Origin: Dehalococcoidia bacterium
GTDB lineage: Bacteria; Chloroflexota; Dehalococcoidia; Tepidiformales; Tepidiformaceae
Length of the DNA: 34,173 nucleotides
Assembly (NCBI GenBank): GCA_020432105.1
Contig: JAGQGZ010000010.1
Span: forward strand, 1-34,173
Direction of reading: 5' to 3'
This document shows, piece by piece, positions 11,276 to 14,224 of this stretch. The position numbers and the translations under genes were made by a program. The notes below the pieces were generated by a model. It saw only the letters and a program-made list of their open reading frames with translations. It made no database searches and had not been told where the DNA came from. Positions within the stretch are counted from its first letter, which is position 1, and every line of letters begins with the position of its first letter.

Positions 11276-12529
11276 CTAGCTGATCAGCACCAGGTCCGGG
11301 TAGAAGGCGGCGAAAGCAAACCAGAAGTGGTTGGCGTGGGGCGCGACCTCAAGCTTGCTGCCGGCCAGCGGACCCTGCACCGCCCGCCCGGTGACATCCC
11401 AGGTGCTGCCGGTCGAGCTGTCGATGAACCGCCCGTTGCCGTCCGGCTCGAAACTGAGCACCTGGCCCTCGAACGACGCGTAGTAGGCGACGGCAGTGCC
11501 GACATCGCGCGAGCCAGCGATCGACGTGCCATCAAGCGCGCTCGTGGTACCCGGCGCCCAGAGGACCACCAGCGGTGTCTCCCCCACCTCGATGTTCGCG
11601 ACACCCTCATCCGCAAGGTGCGAGAACGCCACAGCTACGGACTGTTCGCCGAGGGTAACGCCGACTACCCGTTCGAGAGCCGGGAGGCGCTCATCAATGG
11701 TTCCGTCGAAGAGGAACGGGAAGCTTGAGGTGTCGTAGCCCGGGTAGGGGTTGACGCCGTAGTCACGGCCATGGCCGGTGTCCTCGGAGAGAACGGTGGC
11801 GTCCGGGTACTCCTCGGCGAACTGGCCCCATGAGACAATCGCCGTGGACACGGCCTTGAGCCTGGTACCGGCATAGTGGCCAACCAGCGACTCGCCCGTC
11901 GCCTGTTGCCACCAGGACTCCGTCTGCCGGTCGAACATGACGAGGTCGGAGTTGCGCAACAGCCCCGACACCCCGAAATCGAGAACCTCACCGGACACCG
12001 TGCGTTCGAACGAGATGGCCGTATTGCAGAGCGGGCAGAACGTCACCGCAATCGGCTGCCCGGCAAAGTGATCGTTGATGATTTCGTGCCAGGTCAGAAT
12101 GTGTAGAGGGTAGGCGCGGGCCTGGTTCCCAATAGTGACGGCCGCCACAGGCACCTGGGGTTGATAGGAAGCCTCGGACACCGGCAGGAACCGCGCATGC
12201 CCACCACGGGGTGACGTGATGCGCACGACACCCTCCCCCTCGGCATCCAGTGCCGGGATGCAATCCGGCCCCGGGCATCCGCTAAAGAGCTCGGTGAACG
12301 CTACCGTCCGCTTCGAGAAGTCAGTATTCGGCCACTGCGGAAAGAGGGCCCGTCCCACGCTGGCGTCGTCCTCTGGTGTCGGCGACGGTCCACTCGCGGT
12401 GGCAGTCACCGTTATCCCAGGTGATTCGACCGGAGTGGGCGATGGCGGCGCCGGGCTATCACCGTCTCCTGCGCAGGCAGCCACGAACAAGATGGTGAGG
12501 ATAGCCGCAGAGACAATGCGTAGTCCCAT
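11276..12529 (-). CDS. DUF3179 lipoprotein
   Basis: A 417-residue exported lipoprotein. The signal is MGLRIVSAAILTILFVAAC with the lipobox VAAC, followed by a Pro/Thr-rich linker. The DUF3179 domain contains FCPLCNTAISFERTVSGE, then FGVSGLLRNSDLVMFDRQTESWW and VLSEDTGHGRDYGVNPYPGY. The CPLC pair and the His/Asp residues suggest a metal- or redox-linked site, but the biochemical function of the family is unknown to me. The ATG at 12529 is preceded by TACGGT with a six-base gap and no Shine-Dalgarno, so it is probably leaderless. A Crp-type site is centred 41.5 bases upstream. The gene is divergent from the operon encoding a Crp/Fnr regulator. Confidence 0.88.
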   Translation of the reverse strand: MGLRIVSAAILTILFVAACAGDGDSPAPPSPTPVESPGITVTATASGPSPTPEDDASVGRALFPQWPNTDFSKRTVAFTELFSGCPGPDCIPALDAEGEGVVRITSPRGGHARFLPVSEASYQPQVPVAAVTIGNQARAYPLHILTWHEIINDHFAGQPIAVTFCPLCNTAISFERTVSGEVLDFGVSGLLRNSDLVMFDRQTESWWQQATGESLVGHYAGTRLKAVSTAIVSWGQFAEEYPDATVLSEDTGHGRDYGVNPYPGYDTSSFPFLFDGTIDERLPALERVVGVTLGEQSVAVAFSHLADEGVANIEVGETPLVVLWAPGTTSALDGTSIAGSRDVGTAVAYYASFEGQVLSFEPDGNGRFIDSSTGSTWDVTGRAVQGPLAGSKLEVAPHANHFWFAFAAFYPDLVLIS

Positions 12530-12535
12530 CACCAC

Positions 12536-12541
12536 ACCGTA
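12536..12541 (-). promoter_or_regulatory. -10 element of the DUF3179 gene (leaderless)
   Basis: TACGGT on the minus strand ends six bases before the ATG at 12529. This places +1 at the A of the start codon. Confidence 0.5.
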
Positions 12542-12563
12542 GGGCCACCGACAGGTAATGCCA

Positions 12564-12577
12564 GTGATCGCCGTCAC
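12564..12577. promoter_or_regulatory. Crp/Fnr-type binding site GTGA-N6-TCAC
   Basis: GTGA (12564-12567) and TCAC (12574-12577) with a six-base spacer form the core of the E. coli CRP half-site pair. The centre (between 12570 and 12571) is exactly -41.5 from the inferred +1 at 12529, the class II activator position. The Crp/Fnr gene is in the divergent operon and its recognition helix has the Arg-Glu-x3-Arg pattern that reads GTGA. Confidence 0.6.
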
Positions 12578-12611
12578 GGTCCCACCCGACGGACACCAGG
12601 AGGATTGGAGC

Positions 12612-12869
12612 ATGGCGCAGCGAGAGCTCTACCTCTACGTCGTCGACGGGTGCGAGACGTGTCAGCGCGCCCGCGCTCGCCTCGAATCGTGCAAAACCAT
12701 CGCGGCGCGCGGCACGCTCGTTGTCCGTTCGCTCAGCGAGCCCTCAACCAAGCGACCGGCCGCCCTGGTGGGGGTGCCTTCGGTTATGCTCGAAGGCGAG
12801 ATCATCGCGATGGGCACACCCGACTGCTGCGCGGTCGGTGCCCTTCTCGCGGCCATGGACCGGGAATGA
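12612..12869 (+). CDS. Glutaredoxin/thioredoxin-like small redox protein
   Basis: An 85-residue thioredoxin-fold protein beginning MAQRELYLYVVDGCETCQRA. The CETC pair (C14, C17) follows the first strand as in glutaredoxins, and VGVPSVMLEGE supplies the cis-Pro segment and the next strand. Near the end it has an adjacent Cys pair (DCC), which is uncommon. The ATG at 12612 has GGAGG and GGAG upstream. The stop overlaps the Crp/Fnr start as ATGA, so it is made together with that regulator. It may pass a thiol-redox signal or simply share its regulation; this is inference. Confidence 0.75.
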   Translation: MAQRELYLYVVDGCETCQRARARLESCKTIAARGTLVVRSLSEPSTKRPAALVGVPSVMLEGEIIAMGTPDCCAVGALLAAMDRE

Positions 12870-13603
12870 GCATCGTCGACAAATTCCGCCCGCGATCCCG
12901 GCTCCGCGAAGTTGGCCAGATGAGCACAGAGCTTGCGCGGCTCAAGAACGCCCTGCTCAGGGAGAACGACCTTTTCCGGGGCCTGACGGGGCCCGAAATG
13001 GAAAGCATTGGTGAGCGCCTGCCGATGGCCACCGCGCGCACGGGGCAGCTCATCTACTCGCCGGGCCAGACTGGCGAAGCGCTGTTTCTACTGAAAACCG
13101 GTCGCGTCAGGATCTACCGGCTCGCCGCCGATGGGCGAAAGATTGTTCTGGCCACCGTGGAACCCGGCACGGCCTTCGGCGAGATGTCGTTGCTTGGAGA
13201 ATCAATGACCGGATCCTTTGCCGAGGCAATGGAAGACTGCACGGTGTGCGTCATGTCCCGGATCGACGTCGAGGAGATCATGCGCGGCCATCCCGAGGTT
13301 GCCATCCACCTCACGGAAATCGTGGCCGACCGACTCCGCCGAACGGAAGATCTGCTCCAGGCTGTGGCTTTCGAAGCGGTGCCCGTCCGCCTGGCACGGC
13401 TTCTTATCGGGCTAAGCGGCGAAAAGGACGAGATCCGCGGATTCAGCCACCAGGAACTTGCCGATATGGTTGGCACTTCACGGGAGACCGTCAGCCGAGC
13501 TCTCGTGGATCTCAAGAACCAGGGGGTCATCGACATCGATCGGCGGTCCATCGCAATCATCGACAGGGCCACACTCCTGCAGCGCCTCGCCGATCCTTCT
13601 TAG
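12866..13603 (+). CDS. Crp/Fnr-family transcriptional regulator
   Basis: A 245-residue Crp/Fnr regulator. The cyclic-nucleotide-binding fold spans about residues 35-150 (FRGLTGPEMESIGERLP, then FLLKTGRVRIYRLAADGRKI and AFGEMSLLGES). A dimer helix follows, then a winged helix with GFSHQELADMVGTSRETVSR. The recognition helix has R206, E207 and R211 in the spacing of R180, E181 and R185 of E. coli CRP, which predicts GTGA/TCAC half-sites. The phosphate-binding Arg-Ser of CRP aligns with Gly116-Ser117, so cAMP binding is doubtful. There is no N-terminal Cys cluster as in FNR. The ATG at 12866 overlaps the upstream redox gene (ATGA). The effector is unknown. It ends in a four-base convergent overlap with the thioredoxin gene. 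Confidence 0.9.
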   Translation: MSIVDKFRPRSRLREVGQMSTELARLKNALLRENDLFRGLTGPEMESIGERLPMATARTGQLIYSPGQTGEALFLLKTGRVRIYRLAADGRKIVLATVEPGTAFGEMSLLGESMTGSFAEAMEDCTVCVMSRIDVEEIMRGHPEVAIHLTEIVADRLRRTEDLLQAVAFEAVPVRLARLLIGLSGEKDEIRGFSHQELADMVGTSRETVSRALVDLKNQGVIDIDRRSIAIIDRATLLQRLADPS

Positions 13604-14172
13604 CCTCCGAGGCTCAAGGCCTCCGCAATCCGGGCTGCAAACTGGTCTGCCGACGGCTGGTACCCAAAACGGGTGAGCTGTCGGCCACTCGCGTCGATGA
13701 GCACAAAGGTTGGAGTACCGCGGACGCCGTACCGTGCGGCGGCGCTGCGGTCGTCGTCGACCGACTTCTCGACGAGGACGGCTTCCTCCCGGAACTGGCT
13801 CATCACCGAATGGGCGAACGGCTCCATCGAGTGACAGAACTCGCACCACGTCCCGGAAAACCAGACGAGGGTCGGCTTCCCATCGGGCTGTGGCGAATTG
13901 GCGTCCGGGAGGGGCGCCGACGAGTGATAGACGGTGTGCTTTGATCCCGTGAGCGCCTCAACGTTGGACCCGGCATTCCCTTCGGCCAGGGTCAACGTAT
14001 CGGCATCGACCGACGACTCCGGGTTGGCGAGTTGGATGGCGAAGTACCCTAAGACCGCGACGATACCAATCGCTGCGCTCCACAGGGCAACCCTCTTCCA
14101 GTCCATACCCGGCCGGTGCCTGGGCGATTGCCTGCTACGTCTCGTCGGCCGATGTGCCCCCTGTTTTGCCAT
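13600..14172 (-). CDS. Membrane-anchored thioredoxin-like protein
   Basis: A 190-residue thiol-disulfide protein. The N-terminus is highly basic (residues 8-26), followed by one membrane anchor (about 27-48), so the thioredoxin domain faces outside. The active site is FSGTWCEFCHSMEPF with C110 and C113, and the cis-Pro loop is GVRGTPTFVLID. The divergent neighbour is CcdA, which supplies electrons across the membrane to exported thioredoxins, so the two probably work as a pair. I chose the ATG at 14172. A TTG at 14214 would add 14 residues, and neither has an ideal ribosome-binding site. A perfect inverted repeat lies just upstream of the ATG. Confidence 0.85.
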   Translation of the reverse strand: MAKQGAHRPTRRSRQSPRHRPGMDWKRVALWSAAIGIVAVLGYFAIQLANPESSVDADTLTLAEGNAGSNVEALTGSKHTVYHSSAPLPDANSPQPDGKPTLVWFSGTWCEFCHSMEPFAHSVMSQFREEAVLVEKSVDDDRSAAARYGVRGTPTFVLIDASGRQLTRFGYQPSADQFAARIAEALSLGG

Positions 14173-14183
14173 CAACTTCCCAT

Positions 14184-14204
14184 TTCGTAAGGTCTTGTTA
14201 CGAA
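14184..14204. promoter_or_regulatory. Perfect inverted repeat TTCGTAA-N7-TTACGAA between thioredoxin and ccdA
   Basis: Two 7-base arms with a 7-base spacer lie 11 bases upstream of the thioredoxin ATG. They are about 43 bases upstream of a start predicted from TACACT (14225-14230) for ccdA. The size and symmetry suit a dimeric regulator controlling both divergent genes. It does not match the Crp-type GTGA core. Confidence 0.55.
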
Positions 14205-14224
14205 GCAAGTACAACCCGGCTCAA

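Follow-up and report, generated by a model that had tools for sequence, protein, structure and literature searches.

The 82-bp gap between a DUF3179 lipoprotein gene and a divergent operon, which encodes a small CxxC protein and a Crp/Fnr-family regulator (P0003), contains a Crp-type inverted repeat that is equidistant from both genes. The centre of the repeat is 41.5 bp from ATG 12529 on the minus strand and 41.5 bp from ATG 12612 on the plus strand, and the predicted starts are 83 bp apart. It is probable that the neighbouring Crp/Fnr protein, bound at this single central site, activates the two divergent promoters, which would be largely leaderless, in the class II manner. The locus is part of the window, the 34,173-nucleotide stretch of DNA that was analysed, which forms one contig of a 3.08-Mb draft genome (G000); the comparisons with relatives drew on 393 genomes.

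Table 1 Features of the divergent locus in the window.
Feature	Position	Strand or centre	Remarks
Gene of the DUF3179 lipoprotein (417 aa, with CPLC motif)	11276..12529	-	PF11376; proposed +1 is the A of the ATG
TACGGT, proposed -10 box of the DUF3179 promoter	12536..12541	-	29.5 bp between its first base and the centre of the repeat
Crp-type inverted repeat GTGATCGCCGTCAC	12564..12577	centre 12570.5	Homologous sites with equal geometry in relatives
AGGAGG, possible Shine-Dalgarno sequence of the CxxC gene	12598..12603	+	Perfect; rival reading of bases overlapping GAGGAT
GAGGAT, proposed -10 box (nAnnnT) of the CxxC gene-crp operon	12600..12605	+	29.5 bp from the centre; six bases before ATG 12612
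Gene of the small CxxC protein (85 aa, thioredoxin/glutaredoxin-like) at the head of the crp operon	12612..12869	+	Start 41.5 bp from the site centre
Regulator of the Crp/Fnr family (245 aa; SRETVSR as recognition helix)	12866..13603	+	Profile matches

Geometry of the intergenic gap

The window contains one exact copy of GTGA-N6-TCAC, the centre of which lies between 12570 and 12571, where the first-pass annotation had placed it. Because 0.70 copies are expected in the window by chance, the existence of the motif alone is not significant. The whole genome contains 56 copies, many of which fall within genes, and 23 copies of the reversed-pattern control. Among the 50 of the 56 sites that were listed, the window site is the only one that combines an nAnnnT box 29.5–30.5 bp from the centre with the start codon of an open reading frame of at least 60 residues, and it has such a box and start on both sides.

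On the minus strand, TACGGT (12541–12536) is followed by GTGGTG and then by the ATG at 12529, so that the box stands six bases before the start codon, as had been claimed; the distance of 41.5 bp claimed for this side is also correct if transcription begins at the A at 12529. The encoded protein matches the DUF3179 profile (PF11376) with 332 bits, compared with a cut-off of 27. In-frame GTG codons are also present at 12532 and 12535, and the reading frame extends without a stop to ATG 12613; the lipoprotein-like signal peptide MGLRIVSAAILTILFVAAC speaks for the start at 12529. TACGGT is at position -12 and a match to AGGAGG is absent, the combination expected of a leaderless gene, and the DUF3179 transcript probably begins at or beside the ATG. 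The sequence TANNNT-N6-ATG was found four times in the window, compared with 3.43 expected, and therefore the -10 box by itself proves nothing. No consensus sigma-70 promoter was found around the site in 12300–12800. The sole terminator-like match, 12537–12518, overlaps the DUF3179 start.

The first-pass annotation described the geometry of the DUF3179 side correctly; its account was incomplete in that it missed the equal spacing to the CxxC gene. On this side, GAGGAT is at position -12, yet it is overlapped by the perfect AGGAGG, eight bases before the ATG. The box is therefore ambiguous in G000, where the crp side may be leadered, and clearer boxes are present in relatives. The alternative start of the CxxC gene at ATG 12558 was rejected, because the extra residues are absent from relatives, whereas ATG 12612 keeps the common spacing. 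No Pfam match was found for the CxxC protein of the window; its orthologue in G215 matches Thioredoxin_3 above the cut-off. The CxxC gene overlaps the start of the regulator gene at 12866. At its other end, the regulator gene has a four-base overlap with a convergent thioredoxin-like gene (window 13600–14214, minus strand), and such a gene is also found beside crp in G005 (L007).

In the proposed mechanism, a CRP-like dimer would occupy the site in the middle of the gap, which is the class II position (approximately -41.5) of two divergent promoters. Transcription of DUF3179 on the minus strand would begin at its ATG or immediately beside it, without a leader. Activation of the plus-strand operon of the CxxC protein and crp would result in positive autoregulation of crp. 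The two halves of the dimer would each contact a polymerase of their own, and DUF3179 would be co-expressed with the crp operon. Since the site is palindromic and equidistant from both genes, two class II promoters sharing one dimer is the simplest reading.

The site upstream of crp and the recognition helix of the regulator

The regulator has the domains of the Crp/Fnr family, matching PF00027 with 72.1 bits (cut-off 27.5) and PF13545 with 65.3 bits (cut-off 27). A scan of genome contigs yielded no Crp relatives other than distant ones. The arrangement R-E-x-x-x-R in the recognition helix reads GTGA in E. coli CRP. The helix SRETVSR of the window protein keeps the Arg-Glu and the Arg that had been attributed to it, and the last arginine covaries with the site. 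The covariation was counted from an alignment of 28 readable orthologues of the regulator, in which helices of the form RE[TS]xxR were scored as Arg-type; G318 (two upstream sites) and G108 (none) were left out of the 28, as their frames are broken by a stop. Of the 15 orthologues with Arg-ending helices, 10 have the site in the 600 bp before crp; of the 13 others, the helices of which end in Asn, Leu, Glu, or Lys, none does (p 2.5e-4). When the site was counted anywhere in the fetched crp locus, the numbers were 14 of 15 Arg-type orthologues versus 1 of 13 others (p 8e-6).

The CxxC gene stands between the site and crp in ten genomes, not including G370, in which the CxxC gene was not recognised. 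An in-frame start is located 41.5 or 42.5 bp from the site in nine of the ten; the exception is G318, which has two sites and its start elsewhere. The gene across the site in G215, G251, and G166 encodes a TlpA-like thiol oxidoreductase, not DUF3179. Copies of GTGA-N6-TCAC are also found, at a similar distance, upstream of a crp-adjacent DUF7482 lipoprotein gene in two related genomes, G005 (L007, 49–62) and G018 (L008, 2118–2131).

The position of the -10 box was profiled in 15 promoters of both kinds, which were chosen for having the site and a nearby start codon; the distances to their starts are therefore selected, and the profile of the -10 box is less so. An nAnnnT box lies 29.5 or 30.5 bp from the centre in 14 of the 15, with counts of 10 and 4 in the neighbouring, overlapping bins and of 4 or fewer in bins clear of the peak. 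The CxxC promoter of G030 lacks the box at the expected place.

It is possible, but rather unlikely, that the arrangement is one-sided, with the site activating DUF3179 from a class II position and repressing or sparing the crp operon, the equal distance being incidental. The plus-strand GAGGAT is weak in G000 and coincides with a Shine-Dalgarno sequence, which would fit this arrangement, and Cmr of Mycobacterium tuberculosis is described as both repressing and activating its own gene from one site (PMC5499769). However, relatives that have no DUF3179 gene beside crp retain, on the crp side, both the start at 41.5 or 42.5 bp and the nAnnnT box.

Another Crp paralogue of the same cell, rather than the neighbour, might bind and activate here, but this is improbable. 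The genome has seven Crp-like matches, and the paralogue helices include VREVVSR and TRESVNK, both of which could in principle read GTGA. G008 has a DUF3179 site in the absence of a close orthologue of the neighbouring Crp. Two observations speak against a paralogue: the site beside crp tracks the helix arginine of the neighbouring Crp itself, and the site marks the promoter of the crp operon in several families. The neighbouring Crp/Fnr protein is the most likely candidate for the regulator acting at the site.

DUF3179 promoters and genome-wide occurrences

The comparison covered 96 upstream regions of DUF3179 homologues, drawn from 89 genomes and representing the better-scoring part of the matches listed; one match on G333 and the lower-scoring matches were left out. 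Exact GTGA-N6-TCAC occurs nine times, in seven genomes, within the stretch examined upstream of these genes. By contrast, 11 other orderings of the half sites and ten other gap lengths each occur zero times or once. GTGA, with nine occurrences, ranks first among 96 half sites of matched GC content, and the runner-up has three. The majority of the DUF3179 homologues are without the site.

Eight of the 89 genomes have an exact site 25–80 bp ahead of a possible DUF3179 start codon: 6 of the 13 with an Arg-type Crp orthologue versus 2 of the 76 others (Fisher p 7e-5; Fisher values overstate independence, because the genomes are related). Conservation before orthologous DUF3179 genes, the test by which the first-pass annotation had proposed that its reading could be refuted, thus holds in the lineage that carries the regulator. 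No exact site was found near the DUF3179 start in G005, G018, G225, G275, and G358, despite their Arg-type Crp.

The DUF3179 promoters of six of the eight genomes contain a TAnnnT box 29.5–30.5 bp from the site. The box is at 29.5 bp in G000 (TACGGT), G008 (TATCGT), and G185 (TACGCT), and at 30.5 bp in G013 (TACGAT), G251 (TACCCT), and G215 (TAACCT). The ATG in the six aligned promoters is 41.5 to 45.5 bp from the centre, so that the leader varies by at most four bases. Because the position of the box is stable while that of the ATG varies, the spacing of the site to the box is the feature that is kept. The sites in G247 and G061 are at 73.5 and 62.5 bp, respectively, and have no matching box. 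The DUF3179 gene of G215, G251, and G185 has a site of its own and lies on a different contig from crp, which indicates that DUF3179 is a target in its own right. The DUF3179 gene of G030 sits behind another open reading frame and has its own Shine-Dalgarno sequence. The 105-residue reading frame between site and DUF3179 gene in this genome (L038, 1067–1382) has no Pfam match and the appearance of a small membrane protein.

Twenty whole genomes with an orthologue of the regulator were scanned with the pattern GTGANNNNNNTCAC-N22,23-TANNNT-N5,10-ATG, which gave 11 matches in 8 genomes. Control patterns with the gaps moved four bases either way gave one match in one genome and three matches in three genomes of the 20. 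Five of the 11 matches are DUF3179 genes, and the window locus is the sole match in G000. The remaining matches comprise a DsrE-like and a GrdB-like gene, a gene for an HTH regulator, two matches without a real reading frame, and, beside crp in G247, a gene for a small protein that matches thioredoxin below the threshold. The looser scan, site-N{20,50}-ATG, is dominated by coding copies among the matches listed.

In 20 genomes from the same family that lack a close orthologue, the pattern has seven matches in six genomes, including the DUF3179 gene of G008. These matches weaken the notion of a regulon purely specific to P0003 and indicate that further Crp proteins make use of the architecture. 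The same site and TAnnnT spacing precede two homologous HTH regulators with Cys-rich C-termini, L233 in G006 and L167 in G030; one of these two genomes has the Crp orthologue and the other does not. In G003 (L236), a class II-like pattern is present directly upstream of another Crp gene, with the ATG 49.5 bp from the centre.

A chance palindrome between two genes, for which the expected copy number in the window and the many intragenic copies in the genome would speak, is highly improbable; it is ruled out, as far as sequence can do so, by the conservation of the motif and its spacing across several genera and families.

Thiol-redox context and comparison with known systems

In cAMP-responsive CRP, an arginine contacts the phosphate of cAMP. 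The regulator has SMTGSF aligned to GPRTSS of M. tuberculosis CRP and is missing this arginine, as are 27 of the 28 orthologues in an alignment judged by eye, which makes classical cAMP sensing doubtful. The NCBIfam CRP equivalog scores 79 bits on the regulator, with a cut-off of 266. All 28 orthologues have Cys128 of the beta-roll, and only part of them have Cys125. The CxxC of the regulator was rejected as a defining sensor, since its first cysteine is absent from many orthologues.

The conserved beta-roll cysteine, together with the CxxC, TlpA-like, DsrE-like, and DUF3179 neighbours, suggests that the signal may be thiol-redox, and the locus may form a small self-controlled circuit for thiol-redox proteins. 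Tentatively, the locus could be a mirror-symmetric leaderless divergon, in which a Crp dimer at -41.5 of both genes acts as a self-activating thiol-redox switch and the two polymerases share it or alternate. The regulator would represent a clade with an invariant beta-roll cysteine in place of the cAMP-binding arginine; DUF3179 would be the output, and the co-transcribed CxxC protein its reductant or sensor partner.

DUF3179 (PF11376) is listed as a selenoprotein family with the redox motif UxxC/T (PMC9312934, PMC13188914). Two homologues, L064 in G020 and L057 in G047, have one in-frame TGA exactly at the first cysteine of CPLC (W/Y-U-PLC) and are selenocysteine forms, whereas the gene of the window is a cysteine form. 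A single TGA is also present in many other DUF3179 matches listed.

For a Crp clade of uncultured bacteria, a target set and a binding code are suggested here for the first time, and the uncharacterised DUF3179 family is placed under a candidate regulator with thiol-redox neighbours. The code that pairs the helix arginine with GTGA is directly testable, and the locus lends itself to asking whether a single activator dimer is able to serve two symmetric polymerases on leaderless genes.

At class II CRP promoters, the site is centred at approximately -41.5 and overlaps the -35 region, the -10 box is 29.5 bp from the centre, and each CRP subunit can contact the polymerase. The spacing is alike at the window locus, where the start is predicted from the TAnnnT box, not mapped. 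In work attributed to El-Robh and Busby (2002), one E. coli CRP dimer reportedly activates two divergent promoters, a model system that resembles the locus in using a single dimer for two promoters. In cloned E. coli promoters with overlapping divergent starts, CRP at -40.5 is described as raising one transcript and blocking the other (PMC12825309); in the window, the predicted starts are 83 bp apart.

The Cmr–rv1676 divergon of M. tuberculosis is similar in that a Crp/Fnr protein, described as cAMP-independent and redox-responsive, acts from a single site between its own gene, which it regulates, and the divergent rv1676, which it activates, with both directions activated in vitro; repression by Cmr at an upstream start of its gene is also described (PMC5499769). 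Its neighbours, the peroxiredoxin-like rv1676 and dsbF, are likewise thiol-redox genes (PMC5499769). The window locus differs from it in the symmetrical spacing to both start codons and in the CxxC gene that precedes crp. The match of P0003 to Cmr (Rv1675c) is weak (E ~9e-10, ~42 bits), with many other Crp chains scoring higher, and does not indicate a close relationship.

TANNNT approximately 12 bp before the start codon is reported as a mark of leaderless genes, including those of high-GC groups, in a study whose subject, as presented, does not extend to activator sites (PMC3160421); the box of the window is alike. No report of this locus was found among the papers listed from the open-access literature on leaderless and class II CRP promoters, Chloroflexi, and divergent CRP promoters. 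The proposed architecture is a conserved and plausible variation on a known kind of control, and the second, equally spaced promoter extends the earlier reading of the locus, which the comparisons support.
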